From a virus: 38,678 bases of DNA. How positions within the stretch are numbered: the stretch's first letter is position 1; each line of letters starts with the position of its first letter. Of this stretch, positions 3,589 to 38,525 are shown one piece after another. Under the pieces are notes generated by a model. The model searched no databases, was not told where the DNA came from, and was given only the letters and a program-made list of their open reading frames with translations. Location of the stretch: the IMG/VR virus record IMGVR_UViG_3300032236_000267, positions 1 through 38,678 of that record. The stretch is one strand, 5' to 3'. The translations under genes were made by a program, and so were the position numbers.

Positions 3589-4586
3589 TGGCAGCAGAAT
3601 ACAATAAAATTATAAGAAAAATAGTTGTTGGGTTTGGTAATCTTTTCGATGATATTACATTGACAAGATTCAATCCTGATGGTTCAGAAGCACAAAGTCA
3701 AAAGGTGCCATTGGCCTACGCATCAAAAGAACGATATGTGATGCGTTTACAAAATGATCCAGAGCTTGATAAAAAAGTTCAAATCACTCTGCCTCGTATG
3801 TCTTTCGAAATGAATGGTTTGTCTTATGATTCATCCAGAAAACAAATAACTAACATCAAAAATTACGCAAAATCAAATAATGCAGACACGTTACTATCGC
3901 AGTATAATCCTGTGCCTTATGATTTTGATTTTTCATTATACATCTATGTAAGAAACATTGAAGATGGTACTCAAATCATTGAGCATATTTTACCATTCTT
4001 TACACCAGATTATACTATTAGGTTGAACTTAATACCTGAAATGGGGATTATCAAAGAAGTTCCTGTTTTATTAAAGTCTACTAATCAAGAAATTACATAT
4101 GAAGGTAATAGAGACCAAGAAACAAGAACTATTATTTGGACATTAAATTTTACTGTCAAAGGTTTTGTATTTGGTCCTGTTTCTGAACCTAAAATTATTA
4201 AATCTTCTATTACAAATATATTAGATAATTCTTTATCTGATGCAGATATTGTTGAATTTTCTATGGTCGATGATGGATTGGGAAATTACCAAGAAGGCGA
4301 ATATGTTTATCAAGGTTACTCTTTAGAAAATGCAACAGCCACAGCTAAAGTAATTGTTTGGGGTGTTGACACATTAAAACTTCAAGTTGGTGATTTATCT
4401 GGTAATTTTGTAACATCTAAAAAACTATATGGTGCTAAAACGGGCGCAGTATATACTATTCAATCACATTTAATTCAACCAACTAAATTGGTTAAAGTTA
4501 ATGTACAACCTAATCCTACAAGTGCTAATGCTACTTCGGATTATACATATACTACCACGATTCAAGAATTTCCTAATATAACCTAG
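3588..4586 (+). CDS. gp15: Tail sheath stabilizer and completion protein gp15
   Basis: This 332-residue protein is the tail terminator gp15, which caps the tube and sheath and makes contact with the neck. The family is seen in the N-terminal segment (VGFGNLFDDITLTRFN), in RYVMRLQNDPELDKKVQITL followed by PRMSFEMNGLSYD, and in the DFDFSLYIYVRN block. From about residue 225 to 300 there is a module (QEGEYVYQGYSLENATATAKV, then DLSGNF) resembling the insert at the end of gp14, suggesting that one accessory beta module was used in two neighbouring neck proteins. The start codon overlaps the gene 14 stop by one base. Confidence 0.9.
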   Translation: MAAEYNKIIRKIVVGFGNLFDDITLTRFNPDGSEAQSQKVPLAYASKERYVMRLQNDPELDKKVQITLPRMSFEMNGLSYDSSRKQITNIKNYAKSNNADTLLSQYNPVPYDFDFSLYIYVRNIEDGTQIIEHILPFFTPDYTIRLNLIPEMGIIKEVPVLLKSTNQEITYEGNRDQETRTIIWTLNFTVKGFVFGPVSEPKIIKSSITNILDNSLSDADIVEFSMVDDGLGNYQEGEYVYQGYSLENATATAKVIVWGVDTLKLQVGDLSGNFVTSKKLYGAKTGAVYTIQSHLIQPTKLVKVNVQPNPTSANATSDYTYTTTIQEFPNIT

Positions 4587-9112: not shown

Positions 9113-10798
9113 TTGGCTTTCTCACTTTTTGGGTTTCAGATATCCAGACAGGAAGACGACCTTGAAAAACAGGCCGTTGAACAGTCTTTCGCACCACCAT
9201 CAAATGATGATGGCGCTCTCACCATCACGCAAGCGGCGTACTATGGCACTTATGTTGACCTAGACGGAACTGCTAAGAATGAGGTGGAGTTGATTGGTCG
9301 ATATCGTGAAATGGCGATGCAACCAGAGATTGAATCAGCTATTGATGACATTTGTAATGAAGCTATTGTACAAAATGACGATGGCGAAAACATTAAATTA
9401 GTTACTGATAAACTACAAGTATCAGACAAGATTAAAAAGTCAATCGAAAATGAATTTCAAGTTCTTTTACGATTGTTAAACTACAACAATATGGCACCTG
9501 ATATTTTCAGACGTTTCTATATTGATGGTAGATTGTTCTATCATATTATTATTGATAGAGAAAATCCTACTCAAGGGATTAAAGAATTACGTTATATTGA
9601 CCCACGCAAAATCCGTAAGGTTCGTGAGGTTAAAAAAGATAAAGACGCTAGAACTGGCGTTGAAATGGTTACCGTTGTTAATGAATACTATATCTTTAAT
9701 GATAAGTCAATTAACGGCTCACAGTCTAATTATGGTCCTGTTGGGGTTAGAATTGCCAAAGATAGCATAATTAATGTCAACTCAGGTCTTATGGACTCAA
9801 GACGGGCATCGGTATTATCATACCTACATAAGGCAATCAAACCGTTAAATCAGTTAAGAATGATTGAGGATGCTGTAGTTATCTACCGTATTTCTCGTGC
9901 ACCTGAACGTAGAATTTTCTACATTGATGTTGGTAATTTACCTAAGATGAAAGCGGAACAATATCTCCGTGACATCATGGTTAAGTATAAAAACAAAGTT
10001 GTTTATGATGCTAACACAGGTGAAGTTAGAGATGAACGTAAGTTCCTTTCTATGATGGAAGATTTCTGGTTACCTCGCCGTGAAGGTGGTAAAGGTACAG
10101 AGATTCAAACGTTGCCAGGTGGTCAAAACCTAGGCGAATTAGAAGACATTAAATATTTTGAAAAGAAATTATACAAATGTTTAAATGTGCCTATTTCTCG
10201 TTTAGAATCATCTACATCATTTACTATTGGTCGTGCTACTGAAATTAGCCGTGATGAAGTTAAGTTTTCAAAATTTGTTAATAAACTTCGTAACCGTTTT
10301 ACAGAATTATTTGATGAAGCTCTAAGAGTTCAATGTGTTCTTAAAGGTATTTGTACCGAACAAGAATGGGCTATATTTAAAGAAGGTATCTATTACGATT
10401 TTATCCGTGATAATAACTTTGCTGAACTTAAAGATGCTGAATTACTAAGAGAAAGATTAGGCCTATTATCACAAATTGATATGTATACTGGCCGTTATTA
10501 TTCAATGGATTGGATTCGTAGAAATGTTCTACGATTCTCAGATGATGAAATCAAAACCATTGATAAAGAGATTGAAAAAGAACGTGAAGCAGGTATTCCA
10601 ATGCCAGCTGATTTACAATACGTTGGAATGTTACCAGGTGGTTCTGGAGAAGCGGCTCAAGCGCCAACACTCGAACAGGATCCCGCAATGATGGCACCAC
10701 CGGACGCAGGTCCTGGAGGTAGTTCGGCACCTAAAGCTAAGAAGTCAGGTACTGCTGGTGAAACACCAGGTGGTGGCGATTTAAACCTTGGTAAATAA
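9113..10798 (+). CDS. gp20: Portal vertex protein gp20
   Basis: The 561-residue protein is the portal of the head, a 12-mer that nucleates prohead assembly and conducts DNA. Family stretches include ALTITQAAYYGTYVDL, EIESAIDDICNEAIV, the RRFYIDGRLFYHIIID strand, YIDPRKIRKVREV and the SRLESSTSFTIGRATEISRD block. The C-terminus (from about residue 510) is a low-complexity Pro/Gly/Ala tail ending GGGDLNLGK. The gene begins with TTG at 9113, supported by AAGGA 6 to 10 bases upstream and by the family-like start MAFSLFGF; no in-frame ATG lies nearby upstream. It follows a terminator, so it needs a separate promoter or partial read-through. Confidence 0.95.
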   Translation: MAFSLFGFQISRQEDDLEKQAVEQSFAPPSNDDGALTITQAAYYGTYVDLDGTAKNEVELIGRYREMAMQPEIESAIDDICNEAIVQNDDGENIKLVTDKLQVSDKIKKSIENEFQVLLRLLNYNNMAPDIFRRFYIDGRLFYHIIIDRENPTQGIKELRYIDPRKIRKVREVKKDKDARTGVEMVTVVNEYYIFNDKSINGSQSNYGPVGVRIAKDSIINVNSGLMDSRRASVLSYLHKAIKPLNQLRMIEDAVVIYRISRAPERRIFYIDVGNLPKMKAEQYLRDIMVKYKNKVVYDANTGEVRDERKFLSMMEDFWLPRREGGKGTEIQTLPGGQNLGELEDIKYFEKKLYKCLNVPISRLESSTSFTIGRATEISRDEVKFSKFVNKLRNRFTELFDEALRVQCVLKGICTEQEWAIFKEGIYYDFIRDNNFAELKDAELLRERLGLLSQIDMYTGRYYSMDWIRRNVLRFSDDEIKTIDKEIEKEREAGIPMPADLQYVGMLPGGSGEAAQAPTLEQDPAMMAPPDAGPGGSSAPKAKKSGTAGETPGGGDLNLGK

Positions 10799-19388: not shown

Positions 19389-21005
<1,617 letters not shown>

Positions 21006-31639: not shown

Positions 31640-31706
31640 GCGGCGTGTAATAGTACGATTTGAAGTTCCCCTTCAAATTATCTGAGCATAGCAGGACGCC
31701 GCTCCA
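31640..31706 (+). ncRNA. tRNA-Gly-like RNA with non-standard arms
   Basis: This 67-base element has a perfect 7-bp acceptor-like stem (GCGGCGT with ACGCCGC) followed by TCCA, i.e. U73 and CCA as in bacterial tRNA-Gly. The middle holds a hairpin (ATTTGAAG with CTTCAAAT) whose loop shows TTCCC, containing the Gly anticodon TCC. The 3' arm (TCTG-AGCATAG-CAGG) sits where the T-arm belongs but has AGCAT in place of TTCGA, and the 5' arm (GTA-ATAG-TAC) is far too short for a D-arm. It directly precedes a normal tRNA-Gly with the same anticodon. It may be a minimal tRNA, a decoy for glycyl-tRNA synthetase or another stable RNA. Confidence 0.6.
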
Positions 31707-31709
31707 AAT

Positions 31710-31783
31710 GCGGGTTTAGTTTAATGGTAAAACTAGAGGTTTCCAACCTTTCGTTCTCAGTTCGATTCTGAGAATCCGCTCCA
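31710..31783 (+). tRNA. tRNA-Gly(TCC)
   Basis: A normal cloverleaf: acceptor GCGGGTT with AATCCGC, anticodon loop TTTCCAA, T-loop TTCGATT, U73 and encoded CCA. It reads GGA (and GGG). It is three bases after the tRNA-Gly-like RNA. Confidence 0.93.
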
Positions 31784-31789
31784 AACAAT

Positions 31790-31867
31790 CGCAGGTTAGA
31801 GTTCTGGCGAACTCACCGGTCTCATAAGCCGGACTAAGGTATGGTTCGATTCCTACACCTGCAACCA
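31790..31867 (+). tRNA. Initiator tRNA-fMet(CAT)
   Basis: The anticodon loop is CTCATAA. The hallmarks of a bacterial initiator are present: C1 facing A72 (unpaired end, C-GCAGGT against ACCTGC-A-A-CCA) and an A11-T24 pair in the D-stem. The anticodon stem is CCGGT/GCCGG, without the three consecutive G-C pairs of E. coli. The T-stem has a bulged T (GTA-T-GG with CCTAC), making 78 bases. Elongator Met is encoded separately at 37645. Confidence 0.82.
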
Positions 31868-35863: not shown

Positions 35864-35939
35864 ACTCCGTTCGACAAACGGTTTAAGTCATCACCCTTTC
35901 AAGGTGAAGTTACGGGTTCGAATCCCGTACGGAGTACCA
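35864..35939 (+). tRNA. tRNA-Glu(TTC)
   Basis: Acceptor ACTCCGT with ACGGAGT, anticodon loop CTTTCAA, T-loop TTCGAAT, CCA encoded. First tRNA of the array. A weak promoter-like pair (TTGTTT, 17 bases, TATACA at 35843-35848) lies upstream. Its CCA also belongs to the inverted repeat of the next element. Confidence 0.93.
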
Positions 35940-36069
35940 TATAAAAATACTTTGGATGAGGGGGAATTGGTATACCCCGACGGATTGGAAAGTGTATGCT
36001 TAAATCTTTCTGAAAAATCCGTAGCATTGTCTAGGTTCGAGTCCTAGTCTAGAGTATTTTTATATGGTA
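35935..36069 (+). ncRNA. tRNA-like element on an extended helix, no CCA
   Basis: A tRNA-like body at about 35950-36054 has a Leu-type D-arm (GGGG-AATTGGTATA-CCCC region) and a good T-arm (CTAGG-TTCGAGT-CCTAG), but the anticodon stem ACGGA/TCCGT encloses about 33 bases rather than 7, with a GAAAG/CTTTC helix inside. There is no CCA. The acceptor-type stem (ACTTTGGA with TCTAGAGT, two G-T pairs) continues outward into a perfect inverted repeat, TACCATATAAAAATAC (35935-35950) with GTATTTTTATATGGTA (36054-36069), giving a helix of about 22 bp. It may be a degenerate tRNA or a processed regulatory RNA; it overlaps the CCA of tRNA-Glu. Confidence 0.6.
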
Positions 36070-36071
36070 AT

Positions 36072-36155
36072 GGGTGGTAGGTCATAATGGTATGACACCT
36101 GACTGTAAATCAGACGCCTCTGGCATAGTAGGTTCGATTCCTACACCACCCACCA
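36072..36155 (+). tRNA. tRNA-Tyr(GTA)
   Basis: Acceptor GGGTGGT with ACCACCC, anticodon loop CTGTAAA, a class II variable arm (GCCTCTGGC) typical of bacterial Tyr, T-loop TTCGATT, A73 and CCA. Confidence 0.94.
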
Positions 36156-36163
36156 AGTTTTAT

Positions 36164-36238
36164 GGCCGTTAAATCGAAAAGTTCAGATACTACTCTTTGA
36201 AAGTAGGTAAGTTGGAGCATTACCAACAACGGCTGCCA
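36164..36238 (+). tRNA. tRNA-Gln(TTG) with non-canonical D- and T-loops
   Basis: The acceptor GGCCGTT/AACGGCT has a weak G-T first pair, as expected for GlnRS recognition, with G73 and CCA. The anticodon arm CTACT-CTTTGAA-AGTAG is normal. The T-arm is GTTGG-AGCATTA-CCAAC: the loop lacks TTCGA and has AGCAT. The D-region (ATC-GAAAAGTTCA-GAT) lacks the conserved GG, and position 8 is A, not T. It is the only Gln tRNA in the window. Confidence 0.75.
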
Positions 36239-36248
36239 AGTTTTAAAT

Positions 36249-36337
36249 GGAGGGTTATCTAACCTGGGATGTTAGCGGTGCCTTGAAAGCATCTGGAGCC
36301 GAAAGGCCAAGAGTTCGATTCTGCTATCCCTCCGCCA
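36249..36337 (+). tRNA. tRNA-Ser(TGA)
   Basis: Class II tRNA with acceptor GGAGGG paired with CCCTCC, anticodon loop CTTGAAA, long variable arm (TGGAGCCGAAAGGCCA region), G73 and CCA. The T-stem (AAGAG/CTGCT) has two mismatches, so the structure is weaker than its neighbour's. Confidence 0.88.
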
Positions 36338-36345
36338 GTTTTATT

Positions 36346-36404
36346 TTGGAAGAAAGCTATGACATTAAGTATTCGAGGTTAGGAGAGCATAGCAAACCGT
36401 CCAA
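36346..36404 (+). other. Structured spacer between the two tRNA-Ser genes
   Basis: A 68-base gap between tRNA-Ser genes, where other gaps are 2 to 14 bases (apart from the 40-base hairpin gap at 37722). After the usual AGTTTTAT spacer it holds two nested helices: TTGGA with TCCAA, and GCTATG (36356-36361) with CATAGC (36388-36393). It contains GAGCATAGCA, a 10-base string also present in the tRNA-Gly-like RNA at 31640. It ends in TCCA. It could be the remnant of a tRNA or a small separate RNA. Confidence 0.4.
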
Positions 36405-36405
36405 T

Positions 36406-36493
36406 GGAAGTTTATCTAGTCTGGGAAACTAGCGATGTTTGCTAAACATTAGGAGCTAACAAGCCGAGGGTTCGATTCCCTAAACTTCCGCCA
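36406..36493 (+). tRNA. tRNA-Ser(GCT)
   Basis: Class II tRNA, acceptor GGAAGTT with AACTTCC, anticodon loop TTGCTAA, long variable arm, T-arm GAGGG-TTCGATT-CCCTA, G73, CCA. It reads AGC and AGT. Confidence 0.92.
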
Positions 36494-36495
36494 AT

Positions 36496-36572
36496 GCCCT
36501 TGTGACGAAATTGGCAAACGTGTCGGTCTTAGAAACCGAATTTTGTGGGTTCGACTCCCACTGAGGGCACCA
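36496..36572 (+). tRNA. tRNA-Leu(TAG) with short variable region
   Basis: Acceptor GCCCTTG with TGAGGGC, anticodon arm TCGGT-CTTAGAA-ACCGA, T-arm GTGGG-TTCGACT-CCCAC, A73, CCA. The D-arm is of the Leu type (GAAATTGGCAAAC). The variable region is only 5 bases (ATTTT), unlike the long arm normal for tRNA-Leu and present in tRNA-Leu(TAA) at 37762. Confidence 0.88.
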
Positions 36573-36580
36573 AGTTTTAT

Positions 36581-36657
36581 TGTGTACGACTTCTCTAGGT
36601 GAGAAGGCTTGACTGTTAATCAAGATGCGCTAGGTTCGAATCCTAGGTACACAGCCA
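36581..36657 (+). tRNA. tRNA-Asn(GTT)
   Basis: Acceptor TGTGTAC with GTACACA, anticodon arm TTGA-CTGTTAA-TCAA, T-loop TTCGAAT, G73, CCA. Standard cloverleaf. Confidence 0.93.
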
Positions 36658-36664
36658 GTTTTAT

Positions 36665-36739
36665 CTCTGTGTGGGCCAAAGGTTGGTCACTCGTTTTGGG
36701 GGCGAGACAATGTAGGTTCGAGTCCTACCATAGAGACCA
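36665..36739 (+). tRNA. tRNA-Pro(TGG)
   Basis: Acceptor CTCTGTG with CATAGAG, anticodon arm CTCGT-TTTGGGG-GCGAG, T-arm GTAGG-TTCGAGT-CCTAC, A73, CCA. Confidence 0.92.
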
Positions 36740-36745
36740 GTTATT

Positions 36746-36821
36746 GGGCTTTGATTGAGCTGGGGTTCTTGTCTGCTTTGCAAGCAGATATCGGTGGGTT
36801 CGATTCCCACAAGGTCCACCA
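36746..36821 (+). tRNA. tRNA-Ala(TGC)
   Basis: Acceptor GGGCTTT with AAGGTCC includes a G-T pair at the third position, the classic alanine identity element (G3-U70). Anticodon arm TCTGC-TTTGCAA-GCAGA, T-loop TTCGATT, A73, CCA. Confidence 0.93.
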
Positions 36822-36827
36822 AGGATT

Positions 36828-36901
36828 GCGGATATAGTTTAACGGTAAAATCAGACTTTGCCAAAGTTTAGTCACGAGTTCGACTCTCGTTATCCGCTCC
36901 A
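36828..36901 (+). tRNA. tRNA-Gly(GCC)
   Basis: Acceptor GCGGATA with TATCCGC, anticodon loop TTGCCAA, T-arm ACGAG-TTCGACT-CTCGT, U73, CCA. Reads GGC and GGT, complementing tRNA-Gly(TCC) at 31710. Confidence 0.93.
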
Positions 36902-36907
36902 AGTTTT

Positions 36908-36984
36908 ACTCGGTTAGCTCAGTTGGTAGCAGCGGTCTCCTTACAAGTGACAGGTCGTAAGTTCGAACCTTACACCGAGTACCA
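36908..36984 (+). tRNA. tRNA-Val(TAC)
   Basis: Acceptor ACTCGGT with ACCGAGT, anticodon loop CTTACAA, T-arm GTAAG-TTCGAAC-CTTAC, A73, CCA. The anticodon stem GTCTC/GTGAC has one T-T mismatch. Confidence 0.9.
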
Positions 36985-36989
36985 GTTTT

Positions 36990-37064
36990 GCCCCTTTCGT
37001 ATAACGGCTATTACGCCTGTTTTGTAATCAGGTCATCACGGTTCGATTCCGTGTAGGGGCTCCA
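36990..37064 (+). tRNA. tRNA-Thr(TGT)
   Basis: Acceptor GCCCCTT with TAGGGGC, anticodon arm CCTGT-TTTGTAA-TCAGG (last pair T-T), T-arm CACGG-TTCGATT-CCGTG, T73, CCA. Confidence 0.9.
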
Positions 37065-37072
37065 AGTTTTAT

Positions 37073-37147
37073 GACCCGTTGATATAACGGCTATTATGTC
37101 TGCCTGTCTAGCAGAATACAGGGGTTCAACTCCCCTACGGGTCGCCA
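37073..37147 (+). tRNA. tRNA-Asp(GTC)
   Basis: Acceptor GACCCGT with ACGGGTC, anticodon arm TCTGC-CTGTCTA-GCAGA, T-arm AGGGG-TTCAACT-CCCCT, G73, CCA. Confidence 0.93.
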
Positions 37148-37154
37148 AGTTTCT

Positions 37155-37231
37155 GCCCTCTTAGCACAACGGATTAGTGCATCGGTTTACGAAGCCGCAG
37201 GTTGGGAGTTCAAATCTCTCAGAGGGTGCCA
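37155..37231 (+). tRNA. tRNA-Arg(ACG)
   Basis: Acceptor GCCCTCT with AGAGGGT, anticodon loop TTACGAA (A34, normally edited to inosine by host TadA), T-arm GGGAG-TTCAAAT-CTCTC, G73, CCA. Reads CGT, CGC and CGA; no tRNA for AGA was found. Confidence 0.9.
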
Positions 37232-37239
37232 GGTTTAAT

Positions 37240-37315
37240 GCTCGGGTAGTTCAACGGTTCAGAACAGACGACCGATAATCGTCAAATGAGAGTTCGATTC
37301 TCTCTCCGAGTACCA
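37240..37315 (+). tRNA. tRNA-Ile(GAT) with C33
   Basis: Acceptor GCTCGGG with TCCGAGT, anticodon arm GACGA-CCGATAA-TCGTC, T-arm AGAG-TTCGATT-CTCT, A73, CCA. The base before the anticodon is C, not the near-universal T33. Confidence 0.87.
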
Positions 37316-37324
37316 AGTTTTAAT

Positions 37325-37400
37325 AGGACTCAGGTATATGTGGTCAGTACGTGGCGCTGAAGACGCTGAGGACTCGGTTCGATTCCGAGGGGTCCTACCA
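37325..37400 (+). tRNA. tRNA-Phe(GAA)
   Basis: Acceptor AGGACTC with GGGTCCT, anticodon arm TGGCG-CTGAAGA-CGCTG, T-arm CTCGG-TTCGATT-CCGAG, A73, CCA. Confidence 0.92.
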
Positions 37401-37402
37401 AT

Positions 37403-37477
37403 GTGTAAGTGGCCGAATGATTAGGCGTCAGTCTGCAAAACTGTTTAATGTGGGTTTGATTCCCATCTTACACTCCA
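37403..37477 (+). tRNA. tRNA-Cys(GCA)
   Basis: Acceptor GTGTAAG with CTTACAC, anticodon loop CTGCAAA, U73 (a Cys identity element), CCA. The T-loop is TTTGATT, with T in place of the usual C56. Confidence 0.9.
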
Positions 37478-37485
37478 AGTTTTAT

Positions 37486-37559
37486 CCCGGTGTAGTGTAG
37501 CGGTAGCACAAGAGCTTCCAAACCTCTTGGTGGGGGTTCAACTCCCTCCGCCGGGCCCA
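37486..37559 (+). tRNA. tRNA-Trp(CCA)
   Basis: Acceptor CCCGGTG with CGCCGGG, anticodon loop TTCCAAA in the stem AGAGC/CCTCT (inner pair C-C), T-arm GGGGG-TTCAACT-CCCTC, CCA. The discriminator appears to be C, while bacterial tRNA-Trp normally has G, so the identity is a little less certain. Confidence 0.78.
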
Positions 37560-37561
37560 AT

Positions 37562-37637
37562 GGTGTCATTAATGTAGTGGCTAGCATATTAGACTGTGAA
37601 TCTGATAGGACGAGTTCAAATCTCGTATGACACCCCA
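37562..37637 (+). tRNA. tRNA-His(GTG)
   Basis: The acceptor is 8 bp (GGTGTCAT with ATGACACC), i.e. an encoded G-1 opposite C73, the histidine identity pair. Anticodon arm TTAGA-CTGTGAA-TCTGA, T-loop TTCAAAT, CCA. Confidence 0.94.
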
Positions 37638-37644
37638 AGTATTT

Positions 37645-37721
37645 GGAAATATAGCATAGGGGCTTAATGCACCTCCTTCATACGGAGACTATCCTAGGTT
37701 CAAATCCTAGTATTTCCACCA
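37645..37721 (+). tRNA. tRNA-Met(CAT), elongator type
   Basis: Acceptor GGAAATA with TATTTCC (first pair closed, unlike the initiator at 31790), anticodon loop TTCATAC, T-arm CTAGG-TTCAAAT-CCTAG, A73, CCA. A tRNA-Ile with modified CAT anticodon is the alternative and cannot be excluded by reading. Confidence 0.82.
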
Positions 37722-37730
37722 AAGTTTTAA

Positions 37731-37758
37731 TCTAGAAAAAGTATGGTGTTTTTCTAGA
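37731..37758 (+). repeat. Perfect 10-bp inverted repeat between tRNA genes
   Basis: TCTAGAAAAA (37731-37740) and TTTTTCTAGA (37749-37758) enclose GTATGGTG. It lies in the 40-base gap between tRNA-Met and tRNA-Leu, one of only two long gaps in the array. It may terminate or attenuate transcription (the 3' arm starts with five Ts) or guide RNA processing. Confidence 0.7.
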
Positions 37759-37761
37759 AAT

Positions 37762-37844
37762 GCGATTGTGGTGAAATTGGCAAACACATCTGTCTTAAGA
37801 ACAGACGCTTCGGCTTGAGGGTTCGACTCCCTCCTTTCGCACCA
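37762..37844 (+). tRNA. tRNA-Leu(TAA)
   Basis: Acceptor GCGATTG with CTTTCGC, anticodon arm TCTGT-CTTAAGA-ACAGA, long variable arm CGCTTCGGCTT, T-arm GAGGG-TTCGACT-CCCTC, A73, CCA. Standard class II leucine tRNA. Confidence 0.93.
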
Positions 37845-37846
37845 AT

Positions 37847-37923
37847 GGGAGTATAGTATAATGGTTCTATTACATCCGGCTTTTAACCGGTCAATCTGAG
37901 TTCGATTCTCAGTGCTCCTACCA
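37847..37923 (+). tRNA. tRNA-Lys(TTT)
   Basis: Acceptor GGGAGTA with TGCTCCT, anticodon arm CCGG-CTTTTAA-CCGG, T-arm CTGAG-TTCGATT-CTCAG, A73, CCA. Last tRNA of the array. Confidence 0.92.
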
Positions 37924-37964
37924 AACATATATAATATAACATCTAATTTTTATTGGAAATAATT

Positions 37965-38525
37965 ATGGAAACTAGAATTTTAGGATTAGACATCTCAGGT
38001 AACCCTTTCAAATGGCTTACTATGGAAGAAGCGGTACACTATTACGCTACTGACAAAGTTGTTTGGGATATTGGTGAAGAACTTGATACTTACCATGGTG
38101 GTATCGGTAAAGATGGCAATCGTTCTGTAATTGTTGCCAAATCAATCATCGCTATTCGTGGCGAAACTAAACGCAGATATGATAGAGAAACAATTAACAC
38201 TCACGGTAACTACTTGTTATTCCGTAGAGACCATCATATTTGTGCTTTCTGTGGTGACGAATTTGATGCTAGTAAATTGACAAGAGACCATGTACATCCA
38301 AGAAGTCGTGGTGGTTCTAACGATTGGGTCAACTCTGTGACTGCCTGTAAAGACTGTAACGAAAGAAAGTCTAACAGAACACCAGAAGAAGCGAACATGT
38401 TGTTACTTTACTTGCCATATAAACCATGTCGGTGGGAACATTTCATTTTACAAAACCGAAATGTTATTGCTGACCAAATGGATTATTTAAAAGCAAAGTT
38501 ACCTAAACATTCACGTTATTCTTAA
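37965..38525 (+). CDS. HNH endonuclease
   Basis: The 186-residue protein ends with a zinc-supported HNH nuclease domain: CAFCG and CKDC are the metal-binding cysteine pairs, TRDHVHPRSRGGSNDWVN supplies the catalytic His and Asn, and CNERKSNRTPEEANM closes the fold. The N-terminal 90 residues (ILGLDISGNPFKWLTMEEAV) are conserved in similar proteins of marine phages and bacteria. It is free-standing. It may be a homing-type nuclease living beside the tRNA array, or act on host DNA. I chose ATG 37965; an in-frame TTG at 37953 overlaps the GGAAA ribosome site. It follows the last tRNA by 41 bases without a clear promoter. Confidence 0.92.
   Translation: METRILGLDISGNPFKWLTMEEAVHYYATDKVVWDIGEELDTYHGGIGKDGNRSVIVAKSIIAIRGETKRRYDRETINTHGNYLLFRRDHHICAFCGDEFDASKLTRDHVHPRSRGGSNDWVNSVTACKDCNERKSNRTPEEANMLLLYLPYKPCRWEHFILQNRNVIADQMDYLKAKLPKHSRYS

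Follow-up and report, generated by a model that had tools for sequence, protein, structure and literature searches.

How might a phage keep a tRNA set for every amino acid in working order when some of the tRNAs in it have lost letters regarded as universal? The question is raised by a locus within the window, the whole stretch of 38,678 nucleotides analysed here (IMG/VR record IMGVR_UViG_3300032236_000267, positions 1 to 38,678). PHROG matches in the window included a T4-type terminase, a major head protein, a clamp loader and a gp46-like nuclease subunit, which mark it as a T4-like phage, and the nearest cultured match of the capsid was Methylophilales phage Melnitz (66%). No phage record matched the array in a search for near-identical sequence. 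We assigned 24 tRNA genes, 22 of them in a dense cluster of 2.06 kb (35864-37923) and a further two at 31.7 kb (31710-31867), and their anticodons together cover all 20 amino acids. The features, with the evidence for each, are as follows.

31710-31783, plus strand: tRNA-Gly(TCC) (ARAGORN; Rfam, 62.5 bits)
31790-31867, plus strand: initiator-type tRNA-Met(CAT) (ARAGORN)
35864-35939, plus strand: tRNA-Glu(TTC) (ARAGORN, Rfam)
36072-36155, plus strand: tRNA-Tyr(GTA) (ARAGORN, Rfam)
36164-36238, plus strand: tRNA-Gln(TTG), rewired elbow, discriminator G (cloverleaf; compensatory changes of stem and loop among orthologues)
36249-36337, plus strand: tRNA-Ser(TGA), bulged T-stem (sequence; L081 homologue)
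36406-36493, plus strand: tRNA-Ser(GCT) (ARAGORN; Rfam, 26.9 bits)
36496-36572, plus strand: tRNA-Leu(TAG) (ARAGORN, Rfam)
36581-36657, plus strand: tRNA-Asn(GTT) (ARAGORN, Rfam)
36665-36739, plus strand: tRNA-Pro(TGG) (ARAGORN, Rfam)
36746-36821, plus strand: tRNA-Ala(TGC) (ARAGORN, Rfam)
36828-36901, plus strand: tRNA-Gly(GCC) (ARAGORN, Rfam)
36908-36984, plus strand: tRNA-Val(TAC) (ARAGORN, Rfam)
36990-37064, plus strand: tRNA-Thr(TGT) (ARAGORN, Rfam)
37073-37147, plus strand: tRNA-Asp(GTC) (ARAGORN, Rfam)
37155-37231, plus strand: tRNA-Arg(ACG) (ARAGORN, Rfam)
37240-37315, plus strand: tRNA-Ile(GAT) (ARAGORN, Rfam)
37325-37400, plus strand: tRNA-Phe(GAA) (ARAGORN, Rfam)
37403-37477, plus strand: tRNA-Cys(GCA), swapped elbow pair A19:T56 (ARAGORN; Rfam, 57.3 bits; orthologues)
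37486-37559, plus strand: tRNA-Trp(CCA) (ARAGORN, Rfam)
37563-37637, plus strand: tRNA-His(GTG) (ARAGORN, Rfam)
37645-37721, plus strand: tRNA-Met(CAT), elongator type (ARAGORN, Rfam)
37762-37844, plus strand: tRNA-Leu(TAA) (ARAGORN, Rfam)
37847-37923, plus strand: tRNA-Lys(TTT) (ARAGORN, Rfam)
37953-38525, plus strand: HNH endonuclease gene, flanking the array both here and in relatives L081-L088 (PHROG HNH match)

The complete set reported in the preliminary description, with a CCA encoded on every gene (24/24), was confirmed. ARAGORN found 22 of the genes, namely Gly(TCC), the initiator Met and 20 in 35864-37923; Gln(TTG) and Ser(TGA), which sit in a 250-base gap separating Tyr from Ser(GCT), were absent from the ARAGORN and Rfam output on the window and were recognised from cloverleaf and sequence. 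The T-stem of Ser(TGA) has one bulged base, which we also read in relative L081. Scores above the curated cut-off of the Rfam tRNA model (RF00005, 29 bits) were obtained for 20 of the 24 genes; Ser(GCT) fell below it, and Gln, Ser(TGA) and the initiator Met had no match in either of two Rfam searches of the window. Our cloverleaf descriptor gave 1384 matches in 2.38 Mb of collected loci against 1 in dinucleotide-shuffled copies, which excludes chance; strict cloverleaf matches in shuffled DNA numbered 0.

Full sets had been called scarce among phages, and they are indeed rare but known: Morgado and Vicente counted 20 isotypes in 8 of 228 viral clusters (PMC6409571), and the 56 tRNA genes of Xanthomonas phage XacN1 likewise serve all 20 amino acids (PMC5852040). 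The earlier remark on AGA also held, as no AGA-reading tRNA was found in the window, a linear fragment, while AGA makes up 140 of its 443 Arg codons. Relatives do have a tRNA-Arg(TCT), and several carry it behind the same HNH gene that in the window adjoins the contig end. The array is common to related phages with synteny kept; this near-complete syntenic set is real and fits the proposed partial replacement of the host tRNA pool, an idea that it supports in part. The analysis gave no sign of tRNA loss, of tRNA-cleaving defences or of a host with few tRNA genes.

According to the literature (PMC4810234, PMC7912444), the elbow letters G18, G19, Psi55 and C56 are shared across all domains of life, and the ribosome, RNase P, RNase Z and modification enzymes make use of them. 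The Gln gene does not have this signature (G18-G19 with T54-Psi55-C56). Its D-loop, AAAAGTTC, and its T-loop, AGCATTA, read as A18:G55, G19:C56 and A54:T58; the D-loop has 8 nt, and only in 7-nt D-loops can positions 18 and 19 be assigned with certainty. Paired positions in the acceptor, D, anticodon and T stems number 7, 3, 5 and 5 (7/7 acceptor, 5/5 anticodon, 5/5 T-stem), and the discriminator is G73. RF00005 did not list the gene even at E 0.001; it was overlooked by the gene finders because the elbow signature is absent. The Cys gene (57.3 bits, above the cut-off) has the D-loop AATGATT and the T-loop TTTGATT with an A19:U56 pair, paired positions of 7, 3, 4 and 5, and discriminator T73. 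The preliminary description passed over both altered elbows.

Both genes have orthologues with other elbow letters. For Gln, L082 and L083 carry AATGGCTC with ATCGTAA where the window and L081 carry AAAAGTTC with AGCATTA, in a nearly identical body, and the stems of the window, L081 and L082 genes differ by compensatory changes. The Cys orthologues of related phages show three elbows, GG/TTC, GA/TTT or AG/TGC. Gln and Cys retain the cloverleaf with T33, the CCA and a matched discriminator, and they have not kept the conserved G18-G19 and T54-U55-C56 letters; we therefore classed them as a tRNA variant.

For signs that the loops still touch, covariation was examined across 205 non-redundant tRNAs taken from 79 loci, all with 7-nt D-loops, scanned without loop constraint and with AGC-pattern matches removed. 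Pair 18:55 was G:U in 148 and A:G in 53, with 4 exceptions; pair 19:56 was G:C in 185, A:U in 13, U:A in 3 and C:G in 1, with 3 exceptions, so that 7 of 410 pair cells broke the rule. Mutual information was 0.764 for 18:55 (maximum 0.072 over 5000 permutations) and 0.498 for 19:56 (permutation maximum 0.083); every other D/T position pair gave about 0.2 or less in 229 distinct tRNAs that were not redundancy-filtered. Overall frequencies are inflated, since 75 loci were fetched for holding one AGC-type tRNA, and the counts are not independent events because many sequences share ancestry. Loci fetched without a loop pattern gave G:T 55 and A:G 3 at 18:55, and G:C 55 and A:T 3 at 19:56, with 0 exceptions; A18:G55 thus accounts for 3 of 58 there.

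Two predictions drawn from these pairs were run as patterns against IMG/VR. The matched A18/G55 pattern returned 29 true cloverleafs, and the mismatched G18/G55 pattern 0 with AATGGT as the D-loop; in four mismatched cloverleafs the real D-loop had A18 (three) or was short (one). The non-cloverleaf G18/G55 matches were rejected as counter-examples, as most appear to be permuted tmRNAs. Of 8 matches to the matched C19/G56 pattern 7 were cloverleafs, and of 4 to the mismatched G19/G56 pattern none was. The discriminator of G55 tRNAs tracked the isotype (Asp G 9/9, Asn G 10/10, Cys T 8/8, Ile A 16/16).

That such genes are decaying pseudogenes is highly improbable: the Gln gene was indeed missed by ARAGORN and Rfam, but near-perfect covariation, intact stems and the compensatory stem changes among the window, L081 and L082 orthologues speak against decay, and covariation rules it out for the genes of the Gln gap. 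The preliminary description had named failure in covariance scoring as grounds for doubt. Gln, Ser(TGA), the initiator Met and Ser(GCT) do fail, but Gln does so because the model expects a canonical elbow and not because the gene is dead.

The sequence establishes that the changes are matched, the cloverleafs intact and the CCA encoded, and that discriminators follow the isotype; covariation and predictive patterns, evidence of the same kind, indicate a tertiary D-loop/T-loop contact. In our preferred reading, to which we give a probability of roughly 0.8, this is a T4-like phage tRNA array for all 20 amino acids in which Gln and Cys, like many tRNAs of other phages and of mobile elements, keep the elbow contact by matched letter changes. 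G18:U55 is exchanged for A18:G55, G19:C56 for A19:U56, U19:A56 or C19:G56, and U54:A58 for A54:U58 or G54:G58. We infer that the rewired tRNAs adopt the usual L shape, accept amino acids from host synthetases and serve in translation, since they preserve the exposed 19:56 pair on which the ribosome and RNase P stack.

Translation is likely their role. Alternatively, they could be baits or structural RNAs that mimic tRNAs, as some tRNA-like elements do; other structured RNAs also occupy array spacers, and an altered elbow could weaken ribosome use. We consider this improbable: the anticodon loops are correct, the discriminators suit the isotype, CCA is encoded and many isotypes are represented, and for Gln itself the otherwise complete set of the window has the rewired gene alone. 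Two elements with an AGCATA stretch were rejected as members of the same tRNA class: for 31643-31706 the L087 homologue has no fitting anticodon, and the fold of 36347-36404 is that of another, possibly pseudoknotted RNA. Elements of this type in L081 and L086 matched no Rfam family at a relaxed threshold. An Ile tRNA of Escherichia phage ESCO13, found by similarity, was also discarded, as its elbow is canonical.

Why matched changes arose may be explained by compensatory drift, in which high turnover and a relaxed need for host modification enzymes let letters wander in pairs with no special benefit. We regard this as plausible, if at somewhat less than even odds. Many elbow solutions coexist, even within the one orthologous Cys gene, and only one or two altered tRNAs interrupt the otherwise canonical arrays of the window and L081. 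Drift fits less well with arrays rewired throughout or nearly so (L198 23/23, L131 15/15, L207 12/12, L204 13/14), with an overdispersed rewired fraction per locus (chi2/df 4.4, to which sampling and shared descent contribute), or with cellular tRNAs, which share the chemistry and are almost never rewired (194 genomes from the phylum to which L207 belongs gave 1 pattern match).

Adaptive escape from enzymes of the host or of rivals that recognise G18G19/T54U55C56 (tRNA nucleases, TrmA, TruB), leaving the phage pool usable, is possible but doubtful. Judged by the letters, a tRNA without U55 cannot receive the host's Psi55 and one without U54 cannot receive m5U54, so loss of both deletes both T-loop modification targets, and some wholly rewired arrays stand beside canonical host tRNAs. 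On the other hand, we found no elbow-reading defence, and most window tRNAs are canonical and would stay exposed. Speculatively, the change may free phage tRNAs from T-loop modification or elbow-reading host enzymes. We only tentatively suggest a parallel elbow code in phages and mobile elements, in some cases array-wide, whose tRNAs would do without host enzymes that read the D/T signature, or go unseen by them, while still being accepted by the ribosome.

ARAGORN missed 9 of 703 canonical tRNAs in the collected loci, 52 of 88 AGC-type and 33 of 33 GGC-type; counts of tRNAs in phages and mobile elements are therefore too low. Natural matched substitutions provide direct evolutionary evidence for the elbow tertiary pairs, and rewired tRNAs are natural reagents for telling enzymes that require the letters from those that require only the shape; their loops may also aid the design of orthogonal tRNAs for laboratory translation. 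Among the open PMC papers searched we found no earlier report of an AGC-type T-loop, of this kind of 19-56 exchange at G19-C56 in phage tRNAs or of phage elbow variants, nor did the available text of the phage tRNA cluster surveys discuss elbow variation (PMC5852040, PMC6409571).

Compared with the 20-isotype clusters described there, the present array is likewise dense and covers all amino acids; such surveys use ARAGORN or tRNAscan-SE and may undercount rewired tRNAs. With the canonical elongator tRNA (RF00005) the window genes share the cloverleaf, the T33 anticodon loop, CCA, the isotype-specific discriminator and the 19:56 tertiary pair, whereas Gln, unmatched by that model, and Cys replace G18-G19 and T54-U55-C56 by matched alternatives. 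Metazoan mitochondrial tRNAs also depart from the universal elbow letters (PMC4810234, PMC7033119), but they lose the contact, while the phage tRNAs appear to keep it through matched changes with both arms intact. The T-loop motif of RNase P, the T-box and the ribosomal L1 stalk likewise receives, on a pentaloop, a base that intercalates from another strand (PMC4810234); in the phage case the docking would take place inside tRNAs, with A18 predicted to dock on G55.

The terminase, major head, gp46-like, clamp loader, GroEL and Hsp20 genes of the window identify it as part of a T4-like phage, and its capsid protein shares 66% identity with the Methylophilales phage Melnitz capsid protein. The GroEL gene (19389-21005) lies inside the T4-like core gene region, and the closest proteins in the phage collection share 60-67% identity with its product. 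The HNH gene that flanks the tRNA array (37953-38525, plus strand) has a close homologue in eight other IMG/VR loci (L081-L088), all with tRNA arrays, in which the tRNA order is the same wherever coverage is good and ARAGORN detected 23 to 26 tRNAs in the best-covered members. This phage group is therefore characterised by tRNA coverage of all 20 amino acids, or nearly all of them.

In the window, ARAGORN called 22 tRNAs, two at 31710-31867 and 20 in 35864-37923. The Rfam tRNA cut-off was passed by 20 genes of the set, Ser(GCT) scored slightly under it, and the initiator Met had no Rfam tRNA match in the search of the window. Two genes located between Tyr and Ser(GCT) were absent from the ARAGORN calls:

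36164-36238, tRNA-Gln(TTG), recognised by sequence and cloverleaf
36249-36337, tRNA-Ser(TGA), recognised by sequence

Both had been listed in the preliminary description, which was right here where the gene finders were wrong; once they are counted, its full set stands, with 24 genes covering 20/20 amino acids and an encoded CCA, also as described, at the end of each of the 24. Likewise, no AGA-reading tRNA is present in this linear 38.7-kb fragment, although 140 of its 443 Arg codons are AGA. A tRNA-Arg(TCT) occurs in relatives, several of which have it after the HNH gene, which in the window adjoins the contig end.

Several other elements were noticed around the array. The 3' side of the tRNA-Ser(TGA) T-stem has one bulged base; L081 shares this bulge, and the positions around it differ in a compensatory way. 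A long inverted repeat at 35935-36069 (arms of 27 nt, 85%) runs from within the tRNA-Glu CCA to just before tRNA-Tyr; its stem is kept in relatives and the inserts inside it differ widely, and it is possibly an RNase III-type processing stem tolerating cargo. A tRNA-like element upstream of tRNA-Gly (31643-31706) has a 7-bp acceptor-like stem, CCA and a short D side, and its homologue in L087 (~4140-4215) has covarying stems and lacks a fitting anticodon. Between the two Ser tRNAs lies a conserved structured RNA (36347-36404) with the core GTATTCGAGGTTAGGAGAG, whose pattern occurred in 39 IMG/VR stretches. Among 21 aligned sequences, two helices are backed by both-side changes in eight pairs, and a GGTT/AACC pseudoknot is possible, but its letters are invariant; no Rfam family was found for the L081 and L086 copies.

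The acceptor, anticodon and T stems of tRNA-Gln(TTG) are perfect. Its T-loop, however, reads AGCATTA in place of TTCRANN, and no GG occurs in its D-loop, AAAAGTTC. The elbow letters, canonically G18-G19 with T54-Psi55-C56, are changed on both sides. At the same array place, L081 has the same two loops as the window, and L082 and L083 have AATGGCTC with ATCGTAA; these orthologues are otherwise almost identical, with compensatory changes in the acceptor and T stems. For tRNA-Cys, GG occurs with TTC (L083, L086, L088), GA with TTT (window, L081, L084, L087) and AG with TGC (L082). So, as read from these orthologous loop pairs, the elbows of single genes change in matched steps.

To follow the Gln-type loop pair with a CCA end, we used the pattern AAAAGTN{26,45}GGAGCATTACCN11CCA. 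It recovered 77 stretches in IMG/VR. In the compared loci, 61 distinct sequences were left once duplicates were taken out, nearly all with paired acceptor, anticodon and T stems and with anticodons for Ile, Asp, Gly, His, Lys, Met, Gln, Val and others. Bacterial and archaeal genomes (257 Gb) yielded 20 stretches with the same pattern, about half in descriptor-recognised tRNAs. Judged by their loop letters, named cultured phages also carry such tRNAs: Pseudomonas phage 16Q (Ile, AAAAGTA/AGCGTTA; Pro, AATAGTA/AGCGTAA; the annotation lists the two as ordinary tRNAs) and Pectobacterium phage CBB (Pro, AGTTGATA/TTTGAGT). ARAGORN missed 9 of 703 canonical tRNAs, and 52/88, 33/33 and 14/59 of those with AGC, GGC and TGC in the T-loop, respectively.

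We then scanned the compared loci for cloverleafs with D- and T-loop sequence unconstrained, which gave 1384 matches in 2.38 Mb versus one in dinucleotide-shuffled DNA. Covariation was counted in 205 tRNAs from 79 loci, limited to 7-nt D-loops (positions 18 and 19 unambiguous) and <85% identity, with AGC-pattern matches removed; the counts pool sequences sharing ancestry, and a single loop pattern was the basis for choosing many of the loci. Pair 18:55 was G:U in 148, A:G in 53 and exceptional in four; 19:56 was G:C in 185, A:U in 13, U:A in three, C:G in one and exceptional in three; 54:58 was U:A in 151, A:U in 31, G:G in 12, A:A in seven, C:A in three and other in one. Mutual information at 18:55 and 19:56 far exceeded permutations and, in 229 distinct, unfiltered tRNAs, was concentrated at exactly these two among D/T pairs. 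Both couplings held without exception in 58 tRNAs, a smaller sample, from loci fetched by protein or unrelated RNA motif.

Under the 18:55 coupling, a TGCRANT T-loop is expected beside an AATAGT D-loop and not beside AATGGT, the most frequent D-loop of the canonical kind. IMG/VR yielded 29 cloverleafs (score >=19.5) for the matched pair and four (score >=20) for the mismatched one, in all four of which AATGGT lay outside the D-loop; the real D-loops had A18 in three (AATAGTT, AGTAGAA, AGTAGTA), and the fourth was a short AATGTA. For 19:56, the predicted ATGCTA/TTGGANT gave cloverleafs in 7 of 8 matches (three being one identical sequence), versus 0 of 4 for ATGGTA/TTGGANT. The TGCRANT T-loop was also seen in tmRNAs, mostly permuted, at L269, L364, L378 and similar loci. 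Their D-loop dinucleotide was AG in 31 of 45 matches and ambiguous in 14, which suggests the same 18:55 swap.

Residue 18 of a canonical tRNA inserts into the T-loop, where its partner is Psi55; the Watson-Crick pair 19:56 is exposed and offers the ribosome, RNase P and others a flat face to read (PMC4810234; PMC7912444). The matched substitutions retain a 19:56 pair and an intercalating purine at 18, so the elbow very likely keeps its shape. Psi55 and m5U54 are synthesised by TruB and TrmA at U55 and U54; loss of these residues removes both targets by sequence. Discriminator bases track isotype in the G55 class, and we infer that rewired tRNAs are charged and active in translation.

Either compensatory drift or escape from enzymes that read the elbow would fit the changed letters. 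By descriptor, some arrays are wholly rewired (23/23 in L198, a 186-kb viral contig; 15/15 in L131; 12/12 in L207), and the rewired fraction per locus is overdispersed (chi2/df 4.4, confounded by shared descent and locus sampling). Together these lean towards selection in some elements, with the same two confounders. The 23-gene array of L198 also includes an amber tRNA (anticodon CTA, 9930-10003) with a swapped A19:T56. An earlier report of such elbows was not found among open PMC papers, where absence does not prove novelty.

L207 comes from the Chthoniobacter flavus genome, in which one contig holds an array of 16 genes, every one with a rewired elbow (L207; L257:7754-11934), no phage gene was recognised in 10 neighbouring proteins, and the dispersed chromosomal tRNAs recovered have canonical elbows. 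Across 194 genomes of its phylum, a matched rewired pattern occurred once versus its canonical counterpart in 156 genomes; the cellular control thereby extends to a single phylum for patterns and a single genome for the descriptor. A tRNA-His with AAAAGTA-type/AGCATTA loops was seen on candidate-phylum contigs (Doudnabacteria, Daviesbacteria; L219:5214, L221:7476). The L219 gene may sit in chromosomal surroundings, and cells may then have rewired elbows too.

The full set itself is rare, as the preliminary description held, yet known in other phages, according to two papers (PMC6409571; PMC5852040). In the former, among 228 viral clusters with 15 or more genes, eight hold 20 isotypes. Phage XacN1, in the latter, covers all 20 amino acids with 56 tRNA genes.
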